Made by a program: the position numbers and the translations under genes
Assembly (NCBI GenBank): GCA_947253615.1
Contig: CAMYAA010000009.1
Location: forward strand, 1 to 11,003
DNA: 11,003 nucleotides
Direction: 5' to 3'
Source: an uncultured Sutterellaceae bacterium
GTDB lineage: Bacteria > Pseudomonadota > Gammaproteobacteria > Burkholderiales > Burkholderiaceae_F
Part shown: positions 311 through 11,003 of the stretch, in pieces
Position numbering within the stretch: position 1 is the first letter of the stretch
How the letters are laid out: each line of letters opens with the position of its first letter
Notes under the pieces: model-generated
Databases searched by the model: none
What the model was told of the DNA's origin: nothing
Seen by the model: only the letters and a program-made list of their open reading frames with translations

Positions 311-1420
311 ATGGACAAAGACTTTACAGAGCGCCTTTTAGCCTGGTTTGATATCCACGGTCGTCATGATTTGCCTTGGCAAAAAACAAGTAATTGGTAC
401 ACCCGTATTCTCTCTGAGGTGATGCTCCAGCAAACCCAAGTGAAGACGGTGATTCCTTATTTCGAGAAGTTTCTCAACGCTTATCCGACGCCCGAGGCAC
501 TTGCCCATGCACATGACGAAGACGTGATGGCGCTCTGGGCGGGGCTAGGGTATTACTCCCGTGCGCGTAATCTATTAAAGGCCATCAGAACGGTGGTGTT
601 TGATTACGAAGGACGTTGTCCGCAAACGGCAAAAGCGCTCGCTGAGCTCCCAGGGATTGGCCTGTCAACCGCAGGGGCCGTGTCGAGTTCGGTCTTTGGA
701 GAACGCGCGGTGATGGCTGACGGTAATGCCAAGCGCGTGATTTGCCGCGTGTGGGGTATTCCAGGATACGTGGGACAAACGAGCTTTGAAAAGGCGGTGT
801 GGGCAAAAGCGGAGCAGTTATTACCAGCCTCTGAACGGATGGCGGACTATACCCAGGCACTCATGGATATTGGGGCCTTGCTCTGTAAACGTCGTCCTGA
901 GTGTGATCGTTGCCCTATGCAAACGGTGTGTGACGCCTATGCGAGTGGCTCCCCAACGGATTTTCCAGCCTCTAAACCTAAAAAAGTTCGTCCCATCCGT
1001 TATGCTCGCGCGTTTTTCTTGGTGGGTGAGGAGCAGTGTTGGGTCCTTAAAAAACAGCAAAAAGGCGTTTGGGAAGGATTATGGCTGCCTCCATTGGTGG
1101 AGTCCGATGACAAAAATGCGTTGCTAGGGCAACCTTGGGACGCTTTTTGGCGCCCAGCGCTTCGAGAACGCATGCTTGAGGCCCAACGTGCAGTGCTCCC
1201 ACAAATGATGTGGCCGCATGACTTTTCGCATTACCGGTTGGAAATTTATCCGAGCGTGATCGAGTTAAAGCCCGGGTGCGTTCCGGTTGGGTTTGATGGA
1301 GAGGCCTTAGAGCCGCTCCCCTTTAAAGCGCTGGATCGATTGGGATTACCCAGCCCAATCCGCAAACTTTTGGATCAATGCGTCCTAAACCAAACGATGG
1401 ACAGTCTTTTTTCCCATTAA
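311..1420 (+). CDS. mutY: Adenine DNA glycosylase MutY
   Basis: MutY removes adenine mispaired with 8-oxoguanine, the last guard of the GO repair system. The 369-residue length is usual. The catalytic Glu is E36 in Ser-Glu-Val-Met-Leu-Gln-Gln-Thr-Gln. The helix-hairpin-helix Leu-Pro-Gly-Ile-Gly is followed by catalytic D137 in Ala-Asp-Gly-Asn-Ala-Lys-Arg. Four cysteines for the [4Fe-4S] cluster are C192, C198, C201 and C207. The C-terminal NUDIX-like 8-oxoG-reading domain (about 230-369) keeps the Phe-Ser-His motif at 305-307. The ATG start aligns with the usual N-terminus; a TTG eight codons upstream at 287 is in frame but would add an atypical extension. Neither start has a strong ribosome-binding site. 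The first two cluster cysteines are five residues apart where the family has six. The stop codon overlaps that of the convergent rapZ by four bases (TTAA). Confidence 0.97.
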   Translation: MDKDFTERLLAWFDIHGRHDLPWQKTSNWYTRILSEVMLQQTQVKTVIPYFEKFLNAYPTPEALAHAHDEDVMALWAGLGYYSRARNLLKAIRTVVFDYEGRCPQTAKALAELPGIGLSTAGAVSSSVFGERAVMADGNAKRVICRVWGIPGYVGQTSFEKAVWAKAEQLLPASERMADYTQALMDIGALLCKRRPECDRCPMQTVCDAYASGSPTDFPASKPKKVRPIRYARAFFLVGEEQCWVLKKQQKGVWEGLWLPPLVESDDKNALLGQPWDAFWRPALRERMLEAQRAVLPQMMWPHDFSHYRLEIYPSVIELKPGCVPVGFDGEALEPLPFKALDRLGLPSPIRKLLDQCVLNQTMDSLFSH

Positions 1421-2316
1421 GGGGTTTGTTCACGTTTTTCAATGTTCCACGTGGAACGACTTTGGTCCAAAATGCGATGACGCACCGCAGTACCAAACTT
1501 GTTTTTGAAATGCTTACCTAAGGCTTCGGCGATATAGACCGAGCGATGTTGTCCACCCGTGCAGCCAATTGCCACGGTCAGGTAGTGTCGGTTTTGATTG
1601 GCGTAGTCCGGTAACCAAAATTCGATAAAGTCCGTGATTTGTTTGAGCATTTCATGCGTTTTAGGTTGCGCCTCTAAAAACGCCTGAATGGGCTCATCTT
1701 TGCCGGTTAAGGGGCGTAAGAGCGGATCGTAATAGGGATTGGGTAAGCAGCGGACGTCAAAGACGAGGTCGGCCGCGGACGGAATCCCGTACTTAAAGCC
1801 AAAGGATTCAAAAATCAGGGTCATTTGGGCTCGTGGTTGATCCACGAACGAGCGTACCCATTGACGCAGTTGCCCAGGGAGCAAGGCGGTCGTGTCCATT
1901 TGTGCTGCGCCTAGCGAGAGTGGTTCAAGCAAATCACGCTCTTTCTGAATGAGTTCAAGGAGCGTTGGGCGCTGAGCCCCAAGGGGAACGCTTTTGGCTA
2001 ACGGATGCTGACGGCGAGTTTCCGAGAAACGGGTGATGAGCTCATCATCCGAGGCCGTTAAGAAAAGCGTTCGTACGTCAAAGCCTTCTTGGGCGAGATT
2101 GGTGAGGGCTTCAACCGAGTGGTCAAAGGAGTCTTGGCTTCGAGCATCAATGGCGACCGCAGCGGTTTTAATACCGTTTTCTTTCAGATAGGTTGCTACG
2201 GGCATTAAGAAGACCCCGGGCAAATTATCGATACAAAAATAACCACAATCTTCAAGCTGGCGGATAGCAATAGATTTGCCGCTGCCCGACATGCCGGTCA
2301 CCAATATAAGTTGCAT
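1417..2316 (-). CDS. rapZ: RNase adapter / nucleotide-binding protein RapZ (YvcJ family)
   Basis: RapZ has an N-terminal P-loop ATPase-like domain and a C-terminal domain. In enterobacteria it binds small RNAs that control glucosamine-6-phosphate synthase and guides RNase E; in betaproteobacteria the target is not established. Seen here: Walker A Gly-Met-Ser-Gly-Ser-Gly-Lys-Ser at residues 8-15, Ile-Asp-Asn-Leu-Pro at 29-33, the family block Ser-Glu-Thr-Arg-Arg-Gln-His-Pro-Leu, Val-Phe-Asp-Val-Arg-Cys-Leu-Pro-Asn-Pro-Tyr-Tyr, and Gly-Cys-Thr-Gly-Gly-Gln-His-Arg-Ser at 251-259. The ATG is chosen because the Walker A then sits at the normal distance; a TTG 33 codons upstream is open but encodes non-family sequence and crosses a hairpin. 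The ribosome-binding site is weak (GGTGG). The last 15 or so residues extend past the usual end near His-Arg-x-Leu, and their codons contain the 14-bp parS-like palindrome. Confidence 0.95.
   Translation of the reverse strand: MQLILVTGMSGSGKSIAIRQLEDCGYFCIDNLPGVFLMPVATYLKENGIKTAAVAIDARSQDSFDHSVEALTNLAQEGFDVRTLFLTASDDELITRFSETRRQHPLAKSVPLGAQRPTLLELIQKERDLLEPLSLGAAQMDTTALLPGQLRQWVRSFVDQPRAQMTLIFESFGFKYGIPSAADLVFDVRCLPNPYYDPLLRPLTGKDEPIQAFLEAQPKTHEMLKQITDFIEFWLPDYANQNRHYLTVAIGCTGGQHRSVYIAEALGKHFKNKFGTAVRHRILDQSRSTWNIEKREQTP
1443..1458. other. Candidate parS centromere site (ParB-binding palindrome)
   Basis: The sequence TGTTCCACGTGGAACG contains a perfect 14-bp palindrome, GTTCCACGTGGAAC. From established knowledge, chromosomal ParB proteins bind parS sites of the form TGTTTCACGTGAAACA, and the Pseudomonas version carries the same GTTCCACGTGGAAC core. 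Here it lies in the codons for Ser-Thr-Trp-Asn in the variable C-terminal tail of rapZ, near the convergent rapZ/mutY junction, a tolerant place for a fixed DNA site. It is not a terminator: the stem would be 5 bp and no T-run follows on either strand. One fixed 14-mer is very unlikely by chance in 11 kb. Binding by ParB is inferred. Confidence 0.8.
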
Positions 2317-2344
2317 GGACGCCACCGATGGTTGAAAAAATATG

Positions 2345-2370
2345 AAAAAAGCCCATTGTTGATCATGGGC
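2345..2370 (-). terminator. Rho-independent terminator or attenuator between ptsN and rapZ
   Basis: Read on the minus strand, GCCCAT, an 8-base loop (gatcaaca), ATGGGC, then six T residues form a short intrinsic terminator. One more G lies next to the upstream arm without a partner. The stem is only 6 bp, so the strength is probably moderate. It lies after the ptsN stop and only 28 bases before the rapZ ATG, leaving almost no room for a separate rapZ promoter. Either rapZ depends on read-through, making this an attenuator, or its promoter overlaps the hairpin. No plus-strand T-run is present, so it acts only toward rapZ. Confidence 0.6.
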
Positions 2371-2442
2371 CCTTAGGAATGGGAGGATGACTTCATTATG
2401 AAGGAGACCACCCAAATTTTCATGTGCAAAGGAAGGTCTTCG

Positions 2443-2913
2443 TTATTCTTGAGGGCTGGGGTTTTCCCAACTATGAATAATTTCACAAATCGCGACTTCG
2501 CTATTGGCACGCATTAAGCGTTCACGGAACGCATCGTCCTTGAGGCAAAGGGCGATTTCACGGAGTACATTGAGATAGTTTTCCGTGTCCTTTTCAGGAA
2601 TCAACAAACAGAAGAACAAGCTCACGGGCTCGTTGTCGGGGGCATCGAGTTTAATGGGCTCGAGCGTACGTACGATCGCGAGTGCTGGTTCTTCAATCCC
2701 TTCAATACGGCCGTGAGGAATGGCACAGCCATGGCCCACGCAGGTGGAACCAATTTTTTCACGATTGAAAAGGGCATCAAAGCTGTCTTGGTGGGCAACA
2801 CCACACGTACGTTCAAAAATCAACGCGGCTTCTTCGAAAAGACGTTTACGACTGACCGCGTCGCAACCAATTTTGACAGAGTCTAAAGTTAATAAAGGGG
2901 CTAATGTATTCAT
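2443..2913 (-). CDS. ptsN: Nitrogen-PTS EIIA component PtsN (EIIA-Ntr)
   Basis: PtsN is the terminal phosphoryl acceptor of the regulatory nitrogen phosphotransferase system (PtsP-NPr-PtsN). It moves no sugar but adjusts potassium transport, nitrogen and carbon signals by protein contacts in the cytoplasm. The 156-residue single EIIA type-2 domain is the normal length. The phosphorylated histidine is H67 in Gly-His-Gly-Cys-Ala-Ile-Pro-His-Gly-Arg; the following Asp-Ala-Pro-Asp-Asn-Glu-Pro-Val and Leu-Leu-Ile-Pro-Glu blocks are typical. It follows rpoN by 85 bases; in both E. coli and many betaproteobacteria hpf sits in that gap, but there is no room for it here. No strong Shine-Dalgarno sequence precedes the ATG. 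The next gene, rapZ, lies beyond a hairpin, with no hprK between. Confidence 0.95.
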   Translation of the reverse strand: MNTLAPLLTLDSVKIGCDAVSRKRLFEEAALIFERTCGVAHQDSFDALFNREKIGSTCVGHGCAIPHGRIEGIEEPALAIVRTLEPIKLDAPDNEPVSLFFCLLIPEKDTENYLNVLREIALCLKDDAFRERLMRANSEVAICEIIHSWENPSPQE

Positions 2914-2998
2914 GAAAAATCGACAAGATCTATCGTTAAAGACCTTGTGTCTTTACTTTTAAGAGGGATCAGTCTAGCAAACTTCGTCGGAAAATGGT
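2914..2998 (-). other. rpoN-ptsN spacer lacking hpf, with a small inverted repeat
   Basis: These 85 bases separate rpoN from ptsN where the hibernation-factor gene hpf normally lies. No coding remnant is visible. A perfect 6-bp inverted repeat (AAAGAC, 5-base loop, GTCTTT) sits at 2938-2954. On the minus strand it is not followed by a T-run, so it is not a convincing terminator of the rpoN message. I find no good sigma-70 or sigma-54 promoter. Confidence 0.5.
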
Positions 2999-4480
2999 TT
3001 AAAGACAGCGTTTGCGTAATCGAGCAGCGGGGATTTGATCGAGCTCGCGGTATTTCGTGACGGTGCGGCGAGCGACGTGGAGTCCTTGAGCTTCGAGGGC
3101 GTCGGCAATCGCTTGGTCGCTCAACGGTTTTTGTGGATTTTCTGCCTCAATGAGCGCTCGGATTTTGGCACGAATGGCGTCCGAACTGGCGTCTTCGGGG
3201 CTGCTCGCCGCGAGGGTAGGCTCTGCGTTTTGACTGAAGCGACTAGCATTAAATAAGTTCTTTAAAGGAATAAGCCCACGAGGGGTGAGCATATATTTCC
3301 CGGAACACGCTCGGGAGACGGTAGAGACCGAGAGGCCGAGAGCTTGGGCGCATTCAGGCATGGACAACGCCTTTAGCGTTGCCTCAGGATGGGTGATCCA
3401 GGCCTTTTGTGTTTCAAACAAGAAGTGGCCGAGTCGGGAGAGGGTGAGCATACGCGACTGCAGGGCCGTGAGTAAAAGGCGGGCTTCTTGGAAATAACTT
3501 TGCCAGGTGGTTTTATCCATGGTTTTTTCCAAGCGTCGGAGCTCTTGGGTTTCTTGCCAGTCGATTGCGGGTAGGTGGTGCGCATTGATCACCAGATGCC
3601 ATTGATCTTGTTCATGGACGACCATGAGATCGGGCTCGATGTACTCGGTAATCTCGTTATTTTGGTTGCCCCACGGGAAGGGGTTGAGCCCTTTGAGTTC
3701 GTCATAAAGGGCTTCTAGGCGCGAGGAATTTTGATTGACGTAGGTCAGGAGTTTGCTCTCATTTCGTTGAAGCAAATCGGTGAGCGACTCCGTAATGATC
3801 AATAGTAGGGTTTCGAATAACTCACGTCGCTCGGGTTGCGTGGCGATCTTTTGATGAATTTGTAATCGCAAAGCTTCCATCGGGCCCGAGGCACCAAGAC
3901 CAGGAGGATCAAAACGAGTCAAAAGGTTTTTCGCGTTTTCCCAATCGGCCAAGGTGACGAGTGTGTAACCTTCTTGGGCCAAGACGGGGGTGTATTCCTG
4001 CGCGAGTGTAGACAGTGAGCTCGTGAGAAAACCATGTTCATCGAGTTCATCAATGAGGCAGGTCACGAGGGTTTCTTCGAGGGGCGAACGTGTTAAACAA
4101 CGCGCGTCCGAAAGAAGGCTCGCTTTGCTGTCTTCAAGGGCAGCGACGTTTTCAAAGGGATCCCAATCCTCGGAAGCGTTGCTGGCTTTTCCCCACGTTT
4201 CGTCATTGTAGGTTTCATCCTCGGCTGGATCGGGCAGAGGGGGCGTAGCGTCGTCGGCCTCTGACGCGCTAGGCGTTTCCTCTTCGAGTGAGGACGTCTC
4301 TTTATCTTTGGGCGCGTTCGTGTGGTTCGTACTCTGGAGCAAAGGGTTTGACGCGAGCAACGCCTCGGCTTCGAGGCGAAGTTGCTCGGACGGGATCTGG
4401 AGAAATCGCGTCACAAGGATTTGTTCTTGTGAAAGCGTCTGCTTCTGTGATTGCTGTGTTTGGAGTTTAGCCGAGCCCAC
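2999..4480 (-). CDS. rpoN: RNA polymerase sigma-54 factor RpoN
   Basis: Sigma-54 directs RNA polymerase to -24/-12 promoters that need an ATP-driven activator. The 493 residues show the expected order: a Gln/Leu-rich region I (1-48, ending Asn-Pro-Leu-Leu), an acidic linker (about 55-115), the core-binding domain, a helix-turn-helix region, and the RpoN box Ala-Arg-Arg-Thr-Val-Thr-Lys-Tyr-Arg-Glu at 470-479. Several positions usually near-invariant are changed: region I lacks the usual Thr-Pro-Gln-Leu-Gln-Gln block, the core-binding Gly-Ala-Arg-Asp-Leu is Gly-Ala-Ser-Gly-Pro, and the helix His-Glu-Ser-Thr is Ser-Val-Ser-Thr. The reading frame is intact. The GTG start is supported by an AGGAA eight bases upstream that overlaps the lptB stop codon, implying translational coupling. 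It is the sixth gene of the kdsD operon. Confidence 0.93.
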   Translation of the reverse strand: MGSAKLQTQQSQKQTLSQEQILVTRFLQIPSEQLRLEAEALLASNPLLQSTNHTNAPKDKETSSLEEETPSASEADDATPPLPDPAEDETYNDETWGKASNASEDWDPFENVAALEDSKASLLSDARCLTRSPLEETLVTCLIDELDEHGFLTSSLSTLAQEYTPVLAQEGYTLVTLADWENAKNLLTRFDPPGLGASGPMEALRLQIHQKIATQPERRELFETLLLIITESLTDLLQRNESKLLTYVNQNSSRLEALYDELKGLNPFPWGNQNNEITEYIEPDLMVVHEQDQWHLVINAHHLPAIDWQETQELRRLEKTMDKTTWQSYFQEARLLLTALQSRMLTLSRLGHFLFETQKAWITHPEATLKALSMPECAQALGLSVSTVSRACSGKYMLTPRGLIPLKNLFNASRFSQNAEPTLAASSPEDASSDAIRAKIRALIEAENPQKPLSDQAIADALEAQGLHVARRTVTKYRELDQIPAARLRKRCL

Positions 4481-4491
4481 ACCAACGATTC

Positions 4492-5247
4492 CTACATACT
4501 GAAGTTTTCGCCCAAATAGATTTTGCGAACGTCAGGATTGTTAATGAGGGTATCGGGATCGCCCTGCGCTAATACGCGACCTTCATTGATGATGTAGGCG
4601 TGGTTACAGATGGCTAACGTCTCACGCACGTTATGGTCTGTAATTAACACGCCGAGACCGCGTTTTTTCAAGTAGCTAATGATGCGTTGGATTTCGATCA
4701 CTGCAATCGGGTCCACCCCGGCGAAAGGTTCGTCGAGCAAAATAAAACGAGGGTTAGCTGCCAAGGCGCGTGCGATTTCAGTACGACGTCGTTCGCCCCC
4801 GGAGAGTGACATGGCCAAATTCGAACGGATATGTTGAATTTGTAATTCCGTGAGTAGCTCTTCCAAACGGCGTTCGAGTTCTTCTTTGCTCAAGGGATTG
4901 CCTTGCTCATCTTGTTGCAATTCTAAAATGGCACGGATATTGTCTTCAACGGTGAGCTTACGAAAGACACTGGCTTCTTGGGGGAGGTAACTCAACCCCA
5001 GACGAGCGCGCTTATAGATAGGCATGTGTCCGAGGGACTTCCCGTCGAGCTCGATCGTTCCCGCATCAGCCACCACAAGGCCAACGACCATATAAAAGGT
5101 GGTCGTTTTCCCGGCGCCATTGGGCCCGAGCAGCCCGACGATTTCTCCCGATTTCACTTCGAGATTAACGCCTTTGACAACTTGTCGAGAGCTATAGTGT
5201 TTTTTGAGGTTAGTCGCAACTAACTTATGAACGGTGGTATCACTCAC
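4492..5247 (-). CDS. lptB: LPS export ABC transporter ATP-binding protein LptB
   Basis: LptB is the cytoplasmic ATPase that, with LptF and LptG, pulls lipopolysaccharide from the inner membrane into the Lpt bridge. In 251 residues all ABC motifs are present: Walker A Gly-Pro-Asn-Gly-Ala-Gly-Lys-Thr-Thr (41-49), Q-loop Q90, signature Leu-Ser-Gly-Gly-Glu-Arg-Arg-Arg (148-155), Walker B ending Leu-Leu-Asp-Glu-Pro (170-174), and switch H205 in Thr-Asp-His-Asn-Val. The C-terminal Tyr-Leu-Gly-Glu-Asn-Phe is the LptB tail. An acidic helix with an Asp-Glu-Gln-Gly-Asn-Pro-Leu insertion (about 112-130) makes it slightly longer than the E. coli protein. The start is GTG with AAGGT upstream. It begins 16 bases after lptA and ends 11 bases before rpoN. 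lptF and lptG are not in the window. Confidence 0.97.
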
Positions 5248-5263
5248 TTTTCAACGACCTTGA

Positions 5264-5857
5264 TTAAGGGGTGGATGGCGTTTCAGTTGGCGTTAACTGA
5301 GGGGTGATCAGGGGTTTCGTGTTCGAGTTATCTTTCCCACGTGGGGCAATGATGGTCGTGACACGTTGTTGCTGACCATTAATCACGGCCCCAGTTACCA
5401 CGGAGCGTGCTTTACGCAAGTCGTAGGTAATGTTTTCGCCGCTCGTCGAATCTTTTTCGACGCCGTTTTCAGAGCGACTTAATTTCGCATTACCTTTGAG
5501 CATTAACTGATCGGACTCTTCGTCATAGACCAATCGATTTGCACTCGCCTTCATCCATTCCGTGGTGTTGGGCGATTTGGTATCGCGTTTTTGTTTAAAA
5601 CTAGCGGGGGCGCCAACGAGCTCAATGTGTCGATAGCCTTTGGGCGTAATCGATAGTGATAAGCTCTGTCCTTTGAATTCGATAGACCCTTGTTTGACTA
5701 ATACATTGCCCGAGTATGTGGCGATTTGTTTGACTTCGTCACCTGAAAACTTATCAGCCGTGATTTCAATGGGCTGCGAACGGTCGGTGGCTAAGGCCCA
5801 GGCTTGATGACATAAGCTCAATCCCACGATGGCTGTAAAGACGATGAGTTTATTCAT
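5264..5857 (-). CDS. lptA: Periplasmic LPS transport protein LptA
   Basis: LptA oligomerises into the periplasmic bridge that carries lipopolysaccharide from LptC to LptD. The 197-residue protein has a signal peptide (about 1-21, Leu-rich core, cleavage near Gln-Ala-Trp-Ala). The OstA/LptA beta-jellyroll follows, starting Pro-Ile-Glu-Ile-Thr-Ala-Asp-Lys and including Ala-Thr-Tyr-Ser-Gly-Asn-Val and the repeated Leu-Met-Leu-Lys-Gly-Asn-Ala strand. The last 20 or so residues are a low-complexity Thr/Pro tail, probably disordered. Its ATG overlaps the lptC stop in an ATGA, so it is probably translated by coupling; its own ribosome-binding site is weak (AAAGAA). No alternative function is likely. 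Confidence 0.94.
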   Translation of the reverse strand: MNKLIVFTAIVGLSLCHQAWALATDRSQPIEITADKFSGDEVKQIATYSGNVLVKQGSIEFKGQSLSLSITPKGYRHIELVGAPASFKQKRDTKSPNTTEWMKASANRLVYDEESDQLMLKGNAKLSRSENGVEKDSTSGENITYDLRKARSVVTGAVINGQQQRVTTIIAPRGKDNSNTKPLITPQLTPTETPSTP

Positions 5858-6462
5858 TGTGCGTTCTTTTTTGGATTAGTCGTTGAACGGATGATCGACG
5901 TAACGCCCCCTAAGAGTTCGATATTACGTCCAATATGGTCATAGTGTAGGCCACCTTGACTCTCCGTGGTATCAATCCCCCAGCGTAATGATGCTGGCGT
6001 CTTGGTTTCGAAGGTATAGGTATCGAGGTAGCCCTTCAATTGATGCGTCGAAAAATACATGGACGGATCTTGACCAAAGGGAGCGCGTTGGGCGCTGACG
6101 TTGCCTTGGAGTTCGATGGTTTGTAACCCGTCATCGCTCCAGGCGCGATTAGCTTTGATGCTAAGCGTAGCCGTATTCGGATTCAAGGTGACGTATTGCA
6201 CGTTGGTGCTGTTGAGACGATTATCCGTGAAGTGTTCCAACGTTTTTGCGGTAAGGCGCTGTTTGGGCGAGCCGTTCGCATTAAAGTCGGTAATTTCAAT
6301 ATTAACGGCCTTAAAGTCAGGGCTATTGGGGCTAGGAATGTACTTGAGCCCCGAAAGGTAAGTTTGAATGGAATACAGATAGCTCGCGCCAATTAAGGTC
6401 GCGAGCAAGGATATTCCAATAATAGCCGTGATGCGGTCTCGTAAAAAAAATGGCTTGCTCAC
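5854..6462 (-). CDS. lptC: LPS export protein LptC
   Basis: LptC is a bitopic inner-membrane protein that receives lipopolysaccharide from LptB2FG and passes it to LptA. In 202 residues there is a short basic cytoplasmic N-terminus, one membrane helix (about 11-31), and a periplasmic beta-jellyroll. The jellyroll has the family-like strand Val-Asn-Ile-Glu-Ile-Thr-Asp-Phe-Asn-Ala-Asn-Gly and Leu-Gln-Gly-Asn-Val-Ser-Ala. The sequence is diverged, as usual for LptC, so the call leans on topology plus its position between kdsC and lptA. The GTG start has AGGAAA nine bases upstream. A run of eight T residues in codons 5-8 (encoding Phe-Phe-Leu) is noted. It overlaps lptA by four bases and starts 69 bases after kdsC. 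Confidence 0.92.
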   Translation of the reverse strand: MSKPFFLRDRITAIIGISLLATLIGASYLYSIQTYLSGLKYIPSPNSPDFKAVNIEITDFNANGSPKQRLTAKTLEHFTDNRLNSTNVQYVTLNPNTATLSIKANRAWSDDGLQTIELQGNVSAQRAPFGQDPSMYFSTHQLKGYLDTYTFETKTPASLRWGIDTTESQGGLHYDHIGRNIELLGGVTSIIRSTTNPKKNAQ

Positions 6463-6531
6463 TTGGCGTGGTTTCCTATAGGGCGTCTCAGCGTAGTCAC
6501 AACGTACTATTTTATCTGAGATAGTCCTTGA
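6463..6531 (-). other. kdsC-lptC spacer
   Basis: This is the largest gap inside the kdsD-to-rpoN gene set. It contains the lptC ribosome-binding site (TAGGAAA), a TAAAAT hexamer that could be a -10 but lacks a matching -35, and a small palindrome TATCTGAGATA. In E. coli the lpt genes have an extra envelope-stress promoter inside this region of the operon; nothing here clearly matches one. No terminator is visible, so read-through from kdsC into lptC is expected. Confidence 0.35.
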
Positions 6532-7065
6532 TTATCGGCCTTGTTCAAAGGTTTGTTCAACGAGGTCAAACCAGCGACCTTGAGCGCGCAAAATCAATTC
6601 CGCCAATGAGCGAACAGCCCCCTGCCCGCCGGGGAAGGGGGAGACAAAATTGACGAGCGCTTGAATATCAGGATCCGCGTCCGAAGGCGAGCTCGAGAGT
6701 CCCACGCGCTTTAACAAGGGTAAGTCGGGGATGTCGTCGCCCATGTAGGCCACGGCTTGTTCGTCAATCCCGAGTTTTTTGAGGAGTGCCTCAAAGGCTG
6801 GCACTTTAAAGCGTTGGTTTTGATAGAGCTCGGTGATGCCGAGTTCTTCGCAACGCGTTTTCAAAATTTGTGATTCACGTCCCGTGATGATAGCCACTGG
6901 AATACCAGCTTTCTGAAGCATTTTGATGCCCAGACCATCGCGAACATAAAAGCGTTTGAAGAATTCACCGTGATCAGTCACGTAAATCCCGCCATCACTG
7001 AGCACGCCATCGACGTCGAGAATGACGAGGCGAATGGCTTGAGCCTTTTGGGTAAGTGCGTCCAT
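6532..7065 (-). CDS. kdsC: 3-deoxy-D-manno-octulosonate 8-phosphate phosphatase KdsC
   Basis: KdsC hydrolyses Kdo-8-phosphate to Kdo, the sugar joining lipid A to the core. It is a small HAD-superfamily phosphatase (177 residues, normal size, no cap domain, usually a tetramer). Catalytic motif I is Asp-Val-Asp-Gly-Val-Leu with D17 as nucleophile and D19 as general acid. Motif II is T61 in Ile-Ile-Thr-Gly-Arg, the conserved lysine is K87, and motif III is Met-Gly-Asp-Asp-Ile-Pro-Asp (108-114). The C-terminal Gly-Gly-Gln-Gly-Ala-Val-Arg segment, which folds over a neighbouring active site in known structures, is kept, although the usual Glu after Arg is Ser. The ATG overlaps the kdsD stop by one base (TAATG), and an AAGGTGA just upstream lies inside the end of kdsD. 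Confidence 0.97.
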   Translation of the reverse strand: MDALTQKAQAIRLVILDVDGVLSDGGIYVTDHGEFFKRFYVRDGLGIKMLQKAGIPVAIITGRESQILKTRCEELGITELYQNQRFKVPAFEALLKKLGIDEQAVAYMGDDIPDLPLLKRVGLSSSPSDADPDIQALVNFVSPFPGGQGAVRSLAELILRAQGRWFDLVEQTFEQGR

Positions 7066-8048
7066 TAGATCACCTTAGCATTGATCAAATCATGCAAATG
7101 AAGGGCCCCGATGACGTGGTTATTCGCATCGGTGACGATGAGTTGATTACATTGATATTGGTTTAAGCGTTTGACAGCGGCAGCAGCGAGCTCATTCTCA
7201 TCAATGGTTTTGGGGGATTTTGTCATGACGTCACGAATGACCAAGGCGCGGATATCGCCCACCTTTTCGATGAGTCGACGCAAGTCGCCTTCGGTGAAAA
7301 TCCCTGTTAAGACGCCGTCTTCATTGATGACTGCGGTCATCCCCATGTGCTTACGGGTAATTTCATTAATGGCTTCTAAAACCGTTGTGTTTTCGTTGAC
7401 GATGGGGATAGCTTCCCCCGTGCGCATGACATTTTGCACATGCAACAACAATCGACGACCGAGGGCGCCACCCGGATGGCTGCGGGCGAAATCTTCTTTC
7501 GTGAAGCCCTTAGCACTCAAGAGGGAGACGGCCAAAGCGTCGCCCAAAGCGAGGGTGACGGTCGTGGAGGTTGTTGGCGCTAAATTCAGGGGGCATGCCT
7601 CACGTTCGACGTGGCAGTTAAGGTGTACGTCGGCATGACGAGCCAAGGTGGATTCGGGATTGCCAGTCATTGCGATGAGGGCCGCGCCTTCACGTTTGAG
7701 GGTGGGGATGAACGTTAATAATTCGTTGGTTTCGCCCGAGTACGAAATCGCAATGACCACATCTTGCGGGGTGACCATACCAAGGTCGCCGTGGGCGGCT
7801 TCAGCGGCATGAACGAAATAGGCGGGCGTTCCTGTGGAGGCAAAGGTGGCGGCTAATTTACGGCCAATGTGACCGGACTTACCCACACCTGAAACGATTA
7901 AGCGCCCTTGGCAATTCAAGATTAAACGGAGGGCTTCGATAAATTCGTCACCTAAACGATGAGCCAGGGTTTCAATCGCTTTGGCCTCTTGATTCAAGAC
8001 TTCACGAGCGAGTTGTAACGCATGTTCAGGGGTTAACTCGGTTTTCAT
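7065..8048 (-). CDS. kdsD: D-arabinose 5-phosphate isomerase KdsD
   Basis: KdsD interconverts D-ribulose 5-phosphate and D-arabinose 5-phosphate, the first step toward Kdo. The 327-residue protein has the usual N-terminal SIS sugar-isomerase domain (about 30-180) and two C-terminal CBS domains (about 205-260 and 270-325). Residues matching the E. coli catalytic set are visible: K57 in Gly-Val-Gly-Lys-Ser-Gly-His, E109 in Ser-Gly-Glu-Thr-Asn-Glu, E150 in Arg-Glu-Ala-Cys-Pro-Leu, and H191 in Ser-His-Pro-Gly-Gly-Ala. The ATG has a good AGGAAA about six bases upstream. It is the first gene of the kdsD-kdsC-lptC-lptA-lptB-rpoN run; the glt terminator upstream means its promoter must lie in the 88 bases before it. 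Confidence 0.97.
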   Translation of the reverse strand: MKTELTPEHALQLAREVLNQEAKAIETLAHRLGDEFIEALRLILNCQGRLIVSGVGKSGHIGRKLAATFASTGTPAYFVHAAEAAHGDLGMVTPQDVVIAISYSGETNELLTFIPTLKREGAALIAMTGNPESTLARHADVHLNCHVEREACPLNLAPTTSTTVTLALGDALAVSLLSAKGFTKEDFARSHPGGALGRRLLLHVQNVMRTGEAIPIVNENTTVLEAINEITRKHMGMTAVINEDGVLTGIFTEGDLRRLIEKVGDIRALVIRDVMTKSPKTIDENELAAAAVKRLNQYQCNQLIVTDANNHVIGALHLHDLINAKVI

Positions 8049-8136
8049 GCCTATTTCCTTTTGGGGATTGTATAGAGTGTTCTTATATTAACGAAAAACC
8101 ATACGAATGGAAAAACGGGAGTGGGGTTGAGGTGAT
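8049..8136 (-). promoter_or_regulatory. Probable promoter/leader region of the kdsD-lpt-rpoN operon
   Basis: The region lies between the glt terminator and kdsD, so transcription of the operon should begin here. On the minus strand it carries a TATACAAT stretch (about 8070-8077) that could serve as a -10, and further upstream a TTAATATAA stretch. No convincing -35 sits at the right distance from either. The kdsD ribosome-binding site AAAAGGAAA is at the left end. The promoter is inferred mainly from layout; the exact hexamers are uncertain. Confidence 0.4.
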
Positions 8137-8176
8137 AAAAAAACGAGGGAATAAAGATGAACTTTATGCCCTCGTT
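8137..8176 (-). terminator. Strong intrinsic terminator of the glt operon
   Basis: On the minus strand an 8-bp arm (AACGAGGG/CCCTCGTT) is followed by one mismatch and an inner 6-bp arm (ATAAAG/CTTTAT) closing a 5-base loop, then a run of seven T residues. It begins 25 bases after the gltL stop codon. There is no T-run on the plus-strand side, so it works in one direction. It insulates the kdsD-lpt operon from transport-gene transcription. Confidence 0.93.
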
Positions 8177-8201
8177 GCAGATCGACTAGATCGTGACTTT
8201 C

Positions 8202-8936
8202 TTAGTGATGCAAGATCTTCGAAAGGAATTGCTGAGCACGATCGGTATGCGGAGAATTAAAGAATTCTTGAGCAGGCAAGTTTTCGATAATTTCACCAGC
8301 GTCCATAAAGATCACGCGGTCAGCCACTTTACGAGCAAAGCCCATTTCGTGGGTCACGACCATCATGGTCATCCCTTCGCTAGCGAGCTGGACCATAACG
8401 TCGAGTACTTCATTAATCATTTCAGGGTCAAGCGCGGAGGTCGGTTCGTCAAAGAGCATGCAGATGGGGTCCATCGCCAATGCGCGAGCGATAGCCACAC
8501 GTTGCTGCTGACCACCCGAGAGCTGCCCCGGGAATTTTTCCGCGTGAGCCAAGAGTCCGACGCGATCCAATAAAGCTAAACCACGCTTGGTAGCTTCTTC
8601 GCGATCACGGCCCAAGACTTTCATCTGAGCTAACACGAGGTTTTCTTTGATGGATAAGTGGGGGAAGAGTTCGAAGTGCTGGAACACCATGCCCACACGG
8701 CTGCGTAATTTGGGTAAATCGGTTTTGGGGTCGCCCACCGAAATACCGTCCACAATAATTTCACCTTCTTGGAAAGGCTCAAGCGCGTTAACCGTTTTAA
8801 TTAAGGTGGACTTACCCGAACCGGACGGGCCGCAAACAACCACGACCTCACCTTTAGCGACTTCAACCGAACAATTCTTGAGAACGTTAAAGTTCCCGTA
8901 CCACTTACTAATATTTTTAAGTTCAATCATTGCCAT
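8202..8936 (-). CDS. gltL: Glutamate/aspartate ABC transporter ATP-binding protein GltL
   Basis: GltL is the cytoplasmic ATPase of the glutamate/aspartate importer GltIJKL. The 244 residues are very close to the E. coli protein along their whole length, including Ser-Lys-Trp-Tyr-Gly near the start. Motifs: Walker A Gly-Pro-Ser-Gly-Ser-Gly-Lys-Ser-Thr (36-44), Q-loop Q86, signature Leu-Ser-Gly-Gly-Gln-Gln-Gln-Arg (139-146), Walker B ending Phe-Asp-Glu-Pro (162-165) and switch H196. Two in-frame ATGs are possible; the second, two codons in, matches the E. coli N-terminus. AAAGGA lies rather far upstream of the first. It is the last gene of the operon and is followed by the terminator at 8137-8176. 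Assignment to glutamate/aspartate instead of glutamine or another polar amino acid rests on this likeness and on GltI. Confidence 0.95.
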
Positions 8937-8967
8937 AATGAATAGGAATCCTTTTATAAAATCGGTC

Positions 8968-9651
8968 TTACTGCGCTGTGCTCATTTTTGTTTGAAGACG
9001 TCGAATCAGCATGGAAAGCGAGAGCGATACTGAAAGATAGCAGATTGCAGCAAAAGAGTACATCAAAACAAGCTGTCCGTCACGTTCAGCAATCTTGGTG
9101 ATTGCGCCCATGAAGTCATTCCCGCTGATCACATAGACCAGACTCGTATCCTGGAACAACACAATCGTCTGGGTTAACAAGACGGGAAGCATATGTCGAA
9201 TGGCCTGCGGCAAAACTACATAGCGCATCGTCTGAGCATAACTTAAGCCAAGCCCATATGCGGCCCAAAGCTGCCCCTTTTTTACAGATTGAATCCCAGC
9301 TCGCATAATTTCAGCGAAGTAAGCCGCTTCAAAGAGCACGAAAGTGACGATGGCGGTTAAATCCGCGCCAATCATGACGGGGTGATCTAACCCGAGGATG
9401 AGCTGGAGAACCACCGGCATCAATAAGAAGAACCAAAAGAGCACCAACACCAAGGGGATGGAGCGCATGGTATTGATATAAAAGATCGCCGGTGTGCGTA
9501 ACCATGCGCGATGCGATAAGCGACAAAGGGCCAAGACCGTCCCCCAAGCTAAACCCAGGGTGGCCGTGATTAAGGTTAATTTGACCGTGTATTCGAGACC
9601 GTTTAAGAGAAAATCGGCACTCTGTGTAATCGAGGAAAAATCGATAGCCAT
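8968..9651 (-). CDS. gltK: Glutamate/aspartate ABC transporter permease GltK
   Basis: This is one of the two inner-membrane permeases forming the amino-acid channel. The 227-residue protein is a His/Glu/Gln/Arg/opine-type permease with about five membrane helices. The family block Arg-Ser-Ile-Pro-Leu is at 63-67, and the EAA loop that docks onto GltL is at about 114-140 (Arg-Ala-Gly-Ile-Gln-Ser-Val-x-x-Gly-Gln). A Phe-Gln-Asp-Thr-Ser-Leu-Val-Tyr-Val block and a late Ala-Glu-Arg-Asp-Gly are shared with E. coli GltK. The ATG has an excellent AGGAG seven bases upstream, which overlaps the gltJ TAG stop, so the two permeases should be made in step. It precedes gltL by 31 bases. Confidence 0.93.
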
Positions 9652-9661
9652 GGTTTTTCTC

Positions 9662-10396
9662 CTAAGCCTTTAATACAAAACCAGGAACCTGGCTACGACG
9701 TTCAATCCAGGCCATGATGCGATTCACACTAATGCTGATGAGCACATAGAGGAGCGTGGCCCAGGTGTAAGCGGCAAAGAAATGGAACGTGTTTTCGCCC
9801 ATTTCGTTAGCGCGCATGGTGAGTTCAGGCAGGCCAATGGTCATGGCGACCGCCGTGTTCTTCACCATGTTCATGGCTTCGGAGGTAATGGGGGGAATCA
9901 CAATGCGCAGGGCCATGGGCAAGATCACATAGCGATAGCTCTGCATGGTGGTCAAGCCCAATGCCGTGGCTGCTTTGCTCATGCCGGGGGGCAACGAACT
10001 GATCCCGGCGCGAACCTGTTCGGCAATACGCGAGGAGGTGAAAAGACCCAAGCAGATAAAGGCGGAGAAAAACTGGCTATTTTCGGGAGCGGTCGTAATC
10101 ATCCAGGCCTTGTAGGGCGGGATGAGTTCGGGCATCACGAAATACCAAATGAAGATTTGGACAATTAAGGGGATGTTGCGGAATAGTTCAATCCAAGCTT
10201 CGCAGAAAAGGCGAACGTGTCGAATCTTGGAGGTGCGCAGGGTACCGATGAGGGTGCCTAAGACGAGAGCGAGTGCGAATGAGCACAGGGTCAATCCAAT
10301 CGTCCAAAGAGCCCCAACCGTAATGTAGTCGAGCCAGGTGCCATCACCAAATAAGCTGGGCTCGAGCAGAGAATCTAATGAAATGCTGAGTGCCAT
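9662..10396 (-). CDS. gltJ: Glutamate/aspartate ABC transporter permease GltJ
   Basis: This is the second inner-membrane permease of the importer. The 244 residues hold about five membrane helices, the first after a roughly 25-residue N-terminus with Thr-Trp-Leu-Asp-Tyr. The family block Phe-Arg-Asn-Ile-Pro-Leu-Ile-Val-Gln follows, then an EAA loop (Glu-Gln-Val-Arg-Ala-Gly-Ile-x-Ser-Leu-Pro-x-Gly) and Met-Val-Lys-Asn-Thr-Ala-Val-Ala, typical of GltJ. The longer N-terminus and larger size distinguish it from GltK. A GAGG element lies about nine bases before the ATG. It is separated from gltI by 96 bases containing a stable hairpin, and ends ten bases before gltK with a shared stop/ribosome-binding site. 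Confidence 0.93.
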   Translation of the reverse strand: MALSISLDSLLEPSLFGDGTWLDYITVGALWTIGLTLCSFALALVLGTLIGTLRTSKIRHVRLFCEAWIELFRNIPLIVQIFIWYFVMPELIPPYKAWMITTAPENSQFFSAFICLGLFTSSRIAEQVRAGISSLPPGMSKAATALGLTTMQSYRYVILPMALRIVIPPITSEAMNMVKNTAVAMTIGLPELTMRANEMGENTFHFFAAYTWATLLYVLISISVNRIMAWIERRSQVPGFVLKA

Positions 10397-10453
10397 AATG
10401 GGAAACCTCGTTGTTATTTTGTCTTTATGCTGGCGAAGTCAGCTCCATGAACC

Positions 10454-10475
10454 CAAGAGGGCTTTCGCCCTCTTG
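10454..10475 (-). ncRNA. Intercistronic GAAA-tetraloop hairpin after gltI (mRNA stabiliser or processing site)
   Basis: On the minus strand a perfect 9-bp stem (CAAGAGGGC/GCCCTCTTG) closes a GAAA tetraloop, an especially stable GNRA loop. It starts 17 bases after the gltI stop codon. It is followed by GGGTTC with no T-run, so it is not an intrinsic terminator. In many ABC operons a hairpin just after the binding-protein gene protects that part of the mRNA from 3' decay, so the binding protein is made in excess over the permeases. That role is inferred here. Confidence 0.75.
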
Positions 10476-10492
10476 AGAACGGTTTGCTCGGA

Positions 10493-11003
10493 TTAAATCC
10501 CGTCGCTATTGGGATGAGCAAACAAGTCTTTGGTGACCGAGTTCATCGGGAAGTTCAAATTGATGCCCTTCGGAGGAATCGGTTTTTCGAACCAGATCGT
10601 GTAGAGTTCAGCCAAACGACCCGACTTGATCATGTCCGTGATGGTCTTATCGACTAAAGCCTTGAACTTCGGATCGTCCTTGGCAAACATCGGGGCATAC
10701 GGTTCCGTCGAGAGCGAGGCGTCTAAGATCTTGAAGTCACCTGGGTTGGGTAAGTTGGCAATCTGACCAGCGAGAAGCACGTCGTCAATAACGAAGGCAT
10801 CCGCGCGGCCATTCGCAACGAGCTGCATGGCGGCCGCGAAGTCTTTGGTCTGGAGAAGCTTGAAATGCAAGTGATTGGCTTTTTCGAAGTCTTTTAAGAG
10901 CGCAATCGAGGTTGTGCCCGAGGTCACGGCAATGTTTTTGCCATTTAAATCCTTGAGGGTATTAATACCGCTGTTCTTACGAACGGCTGCACTGACCTGA
11001 ATC
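10493..11003 (-). CDS. gltI: Glutamate/aspartate periplasmic binding protein GltI, C-terminal part (5' end outside window)
   Basis: GltI is the periplasmic receptor that delivers glutamate and aspartate to GltJK. The frame is open to the right edge, giving 169 C-terminal residues of a protein usually near 300; the signal peptide and first lobe are missing. Seen: Ser-Gly-Ile-Asn-Thr-Leu-Lys-Asp-Leu-Asn-Gly-Lys, the ligand-site loop Val-Thr-Ser-Gly-Thr-Thr-Ser, Asp-Ala-Phe-Val-Ile-Asp-Asp-Val-Leu-Leu-Ala-Gly, and near the end Trp-Phe-Glu-Lys-Pro-Ile-Pro-Pro-Lys-Gly-Ile-Asn-Leu-Asn-Phe. All are close to E. coli GltI. A GTG at 10925-10927 is internal, not a start. It is the first visible gene of the operon; the promoter lies beyond the window. 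Confidence 0.94.
   Translation of the reverse strand, partial: IQVSAAVRKNSGINTLKDLNGKNIAVTSGTTSIALLKDFEKANHLHFKLLQTKDFAAAMQLVANGRADAFVIDDVLLAGQIANLPNPGDFKILDASLSTEPYAPMFAKDDPKFKALVDKTITDMIKSGRLAELYTIWFEKPIPPKGINLNFPMNSVTKDLFAHPNSDGI

Follow-up and report, generated by a model that had tools for sequence, protein, structure and literature searches.

Results

Gene content of the locus

We analysed a window of 11,003 nucleotides, the whole stretch of DNA presented here, and its features are collected in Table 1. RapZ is followed by PtsN, sigma-54, LptB, LptA, LptC, KdsC, KdsD and an amino-acid ABC transporter. An NCBIfam scan took in ten of the window proteins; gltK, gltJ and gltI lie outside the scan and were named by reading. 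RapZ, MutY, RpoN, LptB, LptA and LptC each exceeded the cut-off of the corresponding model; KdsC and KdsD did so for broader family models and stayed below the cut-off of their equivalog, and the best matches of PtsN and the transporter ATPase fell below cut-off. The longest rapZ ORF opens at a TTG 33 codons upstream (window 2316-2415); the starts of the displayed RapZ homologues correspond to the ATG at 2316. The adjacent ptsN and rapZ genes are separated by 126 bases (window 2317-2442), and hprK, which occupies the ptsN/rapZ place in other betaproteobacteria, is absent from this interval.

Table 1. Features of the window and example parS stations in relatives. Positions refer to the window unless a locus or contig is given.
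Feature	Position	Strand	Remarks
mutY	311..1420	+	Convergent with rapZ, overlapping its end; TIGR01084, 305.7 bits (cut-off 286.5)
rapZ, host gene	1417..2316	-	299 aa from the ATG at 2316; NCBIfam NF003828, 341.9 bits (cut-off 244)
parS-like 16-mer TGTTCCACGTGGAACG	1443..1458	unstranded	15/16 bases as in PAO1 parS2/3
Perfect 14-base palindrome GTTCCACGTGGAAC	1444..1457	unstranded	Proposed ParB loading site
rapZ codons 287-291 (Arg-Ser-Thr-Trp-Asn) under the palindrome	1444..1458	-	Variable C-terminal tail
ptsN, rpoN, lptB, lptA, lptC, kdsC, kdsD, gltL, gltK, gltJ, gltI (cut)	2443..11002	-	tblastn against relative blocks
Example loci of the group with parS 64-74 kb from dnaA	L179-L181, L184, L186, L187, L189		
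gatB/pyrE-type station sites	L241:2704, G408:C110:36039, G410:C74:42878, L242:2946, L246:2899		

Among the best 120 of 7,593 RapZ matches, the closest of those listed were 77% and 76% identical. Five of the listed matches had a readable organism name, four of them Sutterella (60-63% identity) and the fifth a metagenome bin under the name Burkholderia (63%). On its sequence, the window is DNA from a Sutterella-like betaproteobacterium. The nearest family genomes by RapZ identity (60-65%) were G155, G405-G413 and G415, and the RapZ tail of G409 is identical to that of Sutterella massiliensis RapZ. We compared the window by tblastn (E 1e-15) with 13 relative blocks of ~19-20 kb each, ten from this nearest group plus G438, G431 and G368, and with G407. 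All 13 window genes occur in the same order in eight of the ten nearest-group blocks and in G407. No ptsN match was found in the G405 and G413 blocks (L226, L227), and the shorter blocks of G438, G431 and G368 (L228, L229, L230) gave no match to rpoN, gltI, gltJ or gltK. The convergent arrangement of rapZ and mutY is common to all 13 blocks and G407.

A parS-like palindrome in the 3' end of rapZ

A first-pass annotation of this DNA had pointed to a perfect palindrome of the parS type in the last codons of rapZ, and we confirmed it, the perfect core being 14 bases long. This core fits the motif GTTYCACGTGRAAC with 0 mismatches and is its sole exact match in the 11,003 bases, so that the site stands alone with no companion copy in the window. 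The CACGTG core is intact in the 16-mer, which has the near-palindromic form of chromosomal parS, TGTTNCACGTGNAACA. The core is flanked by the consensus T at one end and by C at the other, one flank being without the consensus A. The claimed rarity of such a fixed 14-mer was borne out, with a chance expectation of 4.0e-5 to 5.0e-5 per 11 kb window (Markov orders 0-3) and ~0.01 in 2.7 Mb under base-composition models of the same orders. A site at 7604 with 3 mismatches was set aside as noise: shuffled sequences are expected to hold 1.77 matches at up to 3 mismatches, and the window has 2. A second perfect 14-base palindrome of a different sequence, TGATGAGCTCATCA, is present inside rapZ at window 2034-2047.

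On the minus strand the palindrome is read as CGT TCC ACG TGG AAC, and 23 bases lie between it and the plus-strand mutY stop. The match to the NCBIfam RapZ profile stops at residue 281 of 299, which places the palindrome in the tail of the protein, past the conserved core, as the first-pass annotation had proposed. We compared the last 40 residues of RapZ proteins, and the Arg-Ser-Thr-Trp-Asn peptide was found in 0 of the 119 others among the best 120 of 7,593 matches. The two nearest RapZ proteins have KASMRPEQ and KAHLNPER at the same place, and a Gln-Thr near the very end of the protein is a common ending among relatives. Since the tail varies between relatives, a DNA site could sit there at little cost.

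The motif and ParB in the family

We counted GTTYCACGTGRAAC in a sample of 67 genomes from the family of G155. There were 148 matches in 58 of these genomes, against 3 for the reversed control pattern. The 28 further genomes of the order gave 86 matches against 0 for the control, and six other genomes gave 17 against 3. Where family sites could be placed, they lie beside dnaA/parB or at shared stations. This distribution supports the view that GTTYCACGTGRAAC behaves as the parS of the window's family. Among 55 sampled family sites, 9 match GTTCCACGTGGAAC exactly and 12 belong to the T/C flank class of the rapZ site.

A ParB match was present in 26 of the 31 relatives searched, 25 of them over the family cut-off; none was found in G414, G415, G453, G455 or G457. 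In G407, parB follows an ORF that we read as parA-like, and its product aligns with the solved chromosomal ParB proteins 1vz0, 7bnk and 6t1f. The best NCBIfam score of this ParB is to nucleoid_noc, below cut-off, and it exceeds the cut-off of parB_part. The parB match of G406 is in two pieces, one with an internal TGA (G406:C1:2685347-2685819, on a 2.7-Mb contig).

Place of the window relative to the origin

The nearness of this DNA to the replication origin, which the first-pass annotation expected of a real site, is supported by synteny. We searched for dnaA in 20 genomes, 19 of them from the family, and measured distances only where the features share a contig. The distance between rapZ and dnaA is 109.5-122.9 kb in all ten family genomes with both on one contig, that of G409 resting on a partial dnaA match, and is ~126 kb in the outsider G004. 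In G407, rapZ lies at 104,853, dnaA at 226,937 and the cumulative GC-skew minimum at 219,277, which is 7.7 kb from dnaA (first 400 kb of 2.7 Mb read); the rise in skew past this minimum is weak, at +0.018. The plus strand of the window is G-rich (skew +0.094), with third-codon-position skews of +0.24 in the minus-strand genes and +0.18 in the plus-strand mutY. The excess of G on the plus strand, seen at third positions of genes in both directions, fits an origin to the left of the window. Thus, the rapZ site most likely lies ~110-123 kb from oriC, in the origin domain, by synteny and in agreement with strand skew. According to PMC5815017, a second parS cluster is best tolerated within ~500 kb around ori in Caulobacter, and parS must lie within a zone of ~650 kb in P. 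aeruginosa; at ~110-123 kb the rapZ site would be inside both.

The distances from rapZ to parS were measured on shared contigs in 18 family genomes. In 17 of these all such sites lie within 39-128 kb of rapZ; the exception, also to the placing of rapZ near the origin, is G422, in which rapZ is 1,790 kb from a parS pair (G422:C1:1321249-1321287). No parS was nearer than 39.0 kb to rapZ in the 18 genomes. For 22 of the 28 order genomes, by linear distances among the matches listed, no parS lay within 37 kb of rapZ, and in most of these 22 the separation exceeded 150 kb.

Distribution of parS sites in relatives

The table of positions used 147 of the 148 family sites, the second G418 site being left out. 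In the 18 family genomes with parS and dnaA on one contig, the distance between them was at most 74.3 kb. G438, G431 and G368 have a single parS, 4-7 kb from both dnaA and parB. In G155, G405, G406, G407, G409, G411 and G413, the main parS is separated from dnaA by 64-74 kb and from rapZ by 39-49 kb, on the same arm as rapZ and across oriC from parAB. In six of these seven genomes (all but G406) it is 75-85 kb from parB with dnaA between them, a distance taken only from genomes with an unbroken parB match on the parS contig.

Five neighbourhoods that we read, in G155, G406, G407, G411 and G415, have parS beside ttcA and a CBS-like gene, the identity of ttcA being confirmed in G407 by family scan. 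Sites at this station form clusters of two to three, except for the single site of G155. G405 and G413 each have two parS ~5.5 kb apart, those of G405 being away from ttcA. A further station is found 24-25 kb from dnaA in G411, G408 and G410; by ORF similarity its neighbours are both gatB and pyrE in G411 and one of the two in G408 and G410. In G442 and G416, parS is beside a gatB-like ORF.

Several of the family sites fall within coding DNA. An additional GTTCCACGTGGAAC is located inside ttcA in both G428 and G445, at a distance of 43 kb from rapZ, and G412 has a parS inside a peptidase-like ORF. A G405 site (L243:8174-8187) spans the final codons of a cca-like gene for a tRNA nucleotidyltransferase, to which it gives the TGA stop, and is in the same reading frame as the rapZ site. 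The ttcA, cca-like, peptidase-like and 24-74 kb sites are therefore precedents in the family for parS that are outlying, within coding sequence or at a gene end. The outsider G004 has seven parS, all to the same side of dnaA within a span of 135 kb (G004:C2:151956-286942), and two of them flank rapZ at 1.3 and 10.5 kb, the nearer lying in ubiX.

Conservation of the rapZ site

The palindrome was looked for in the relatives' rapZ, the nearest RapZ proteins being 76-77% identical and ten of the 13 DNA blocks coming from the 60-65% group. Its retention there, put forward in the first-pass annotation as a check on the site, did not hold, which counts in part against the site: it is missing from all 13 blocks, in which tails of similar length are retained. 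With up to 2 mismatches allowed, no parS match was found in these 13 blocks or at 100-120 kb of G407. A position kept among relatives, which is usual for established parS but not required, was thus not found for the rapZ site. Family sites lie at different places in different genomes, so a kept position is not a defining property of parS.

The first 80 RapZ loci (1.49 Mb) contained one parS-type site, in ubiX of a Rhodocyclales bacterium, where the peptide may account for it. We considered the G004 site, 1.3 kb past rapZ, as a syntenic relative of the rapZ site. It lies in ubiX and spells VPRET, which we take to be a conserved UbiX motif, and this copy may be driven by the protein; because of its place in ubiX and the peptide that it spells, we did not count it as support.

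The same 22-mer as at the rapZ site, encoding Arg-Ser-Thr-Trp-Asn-Asp-Phe-Gly, occurs in an unrelated gene on a phage-like contig (L238:4866-4887). It was the one hit when a viral contig collection was searched for DNA of the same species, and we rejected it as such, since apart from the 22-mer blastn at E 1e-10 showed no similarity to the window. Its ORFs appear phage-like by reading, and we take the 22-mer for a coincidence. That L238 shares 22 bases without relationship shows that exact copies do arise without kinship.

Interpretation of the rapZ palindrome

The rapZ palindrome is best explained as a functional, single, lineage-specific parS of the origin domain, inside coding DNA, on which ParB could load, and we put the probability of this reading at roughly 0.75. 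A ParB dimer would nucleate on the palindrome, CTP would close it into a clamp, and the clamp would then slide onto the flanking mutY/rapZ DNA. With an estimated distance of ~110-123 kb to oriC, on the arm that bears the outlying parS of close relatives, the site would be one of the places where ParB loads, both for the ParA-driven segregation of the origin and for the loading of SMC. Once on the DNA, ParB stimulates ParA and recruits SMC (PMC7333895). We infer the ParB of the window's own cell, its binding at the rapZ site and all steps after binding from general knowledge of ParABS systems.

The probability was set by a rough weighing. The ratio of 148 matches to 3 gives ~49 to 1 for any family match being real. 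None of the sites in 18 genomes was as distant from dnaA, and a correction that allows for half an event lowers this to an estimated ~10-15 to 1 for a real site. Uncertainty about the window's own genome lowers our confidence below these odds, to the value given above. The reading that has to be weighed most closely is chance, in which a fast-changing coding tail would have drifted into the 14-mer and the cell would make no use of it. The place is without conservation in the 13 blocks and the 119 listed RapZ proteins, and the nearest family parS is 39 kb from rapZ across 18 genomes. Chance copies do exist, to judge from the 3 control matches in 67 genomes and the 3 in six others; the 22-mer of L238 looks like one such coincidence, and the ubiX copy of G004 may owe its sequence to the protein. 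Against chance, the palindrome falls by synteny in the few per cent of the chromosome nearest the origin, on the arm with the relatives' outlying parS; the odds of ~10-15 to 1 favour a real site; and, with the codon usage of the window, R-S-T-W-N would be encoded by this palindrome with a probability of only 0.015 (1.5%). We consider chance unlikely on this balance.

Readings other than a working parS or chance are, taken together, very improbable. A perfect dyad that starts 24 bases past the last base of the mutY stop might be the operator of another DNA-binding protein or a terminator between the convergent mutY and rapZ. However, in 1300-1700 we found 0 terminator-like and 0 promoter-like sites and no G+C stem-loop followed by a T run that would define an intrinsic terminator; no T-run follows the palindrome on either strand, RNA folding was no better than that of shuffled sequences on both strands (z 0.93 and -0.06), and the dyad is inside the 3' end of a gene, away from the starts of the named genes. 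An operator or terminator is on these grounds highly improbable. We give even less weight to selection of the Arg-Ser-Thr-Trp-Asn peptide for RapZ function, with the DNA dyad as its by-product. The peptide does belong to the C-terminal region of RapZ, and the Gln-Thr near the very end is one that relatives commonly share, but it recurs in the last 40 residues of none of the 119 other listed proteins, and the two nearest RapZ have KASMRPEQ and KAHLNPER in its place.

Comparison with known parS systems

We compared the putative rapZ parS with the sites of Pseudomonas aeruginosa PAO1, of the Sutterella group and of Caulobacter. In the PAO1 study, parS2/3 are TGTTCCACGTGGAACA and parS1/4 are TGTTCCACGTGGAACC (PMC4368675, Table 1). 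The 14-base core is identical in the rapZ site and PAO1 parS1-parS4, which also lie in the ori domain (PMC4368675), and the first-pass annotation was thus correct in equating it with Pseudomonas parS. Over 16 bases the rapZ site agrees with parS2/3 at 15 positions and differs from parS1/4 in the last base alone. The PAO1 parS1-4 are clustered less than 16 kb from oriC (PMC4368675), whereas the rapZ site is single and by synteny ~110-123 kb from dnaA. That study also recoded intragenic parS sites without changing the protein (PMC4368675).

The Sutterella group, in G155, G405-G407, G409, G411 and G413, has outlying parS that share the motif, the arm and a location away from parAB. They lie 64-74 kb from dnaA, whereas the rapZ site is a lone copy within a coding tail, placed by synteny 39-49 kb further out. 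The ttcA sites of G428 and G445 and the cca-like site of G405 resemble it as occurrences of GTTYCACGTGRAAC within protein-coding DNA; the ttcA-internal site is kept in two genomes, whereas the rapZ site is seen in one.

In Caulobacter crescentus, ParB likewise nucleates on a short palindrome, and parS sites occur inside essential genes or genes with a high fitness cost, as reported in PMC5815017. Its parS form a cluster ~8 kb from ori with measured binding (PMC5815017), whereas the rapZ site is known from its sequence.

Implications

The candidate is an element of a known kind, and its place in the end of rapZ is not seen in any relative compared. If real, it would add another parS to those in gene ends and, judged by synteny, would exceed every placeable family site in distance from oriC (at most 74.3 kb from dnaA, 18 genomes). 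Among the open-licence papers searched we found none that joins parS sites and Sutterella, and a narrow phrase search there found no parS away from parAB; neither search was a full survey.

It is conceivable, though we consider it doubtful, that the centromere of the Sutterella branch has left parAB and is moving outward along one arm, from the origin through the gatB and ttcA stations, and has reached rapZ at ~115 kb from oriC, where it may be one of few parS or the only one, taking over a dispensable gene end. Segregation would in that case start well after the origin has been copied.

A more useful by-product of the analysis is the arrangement in the relatives, with the main parS 64-74 kb from dnaA, 75-85 kb from parB and separated from parAB by oriC. 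These displaced parS offer a natural test of the workable distance between centromere and origin.
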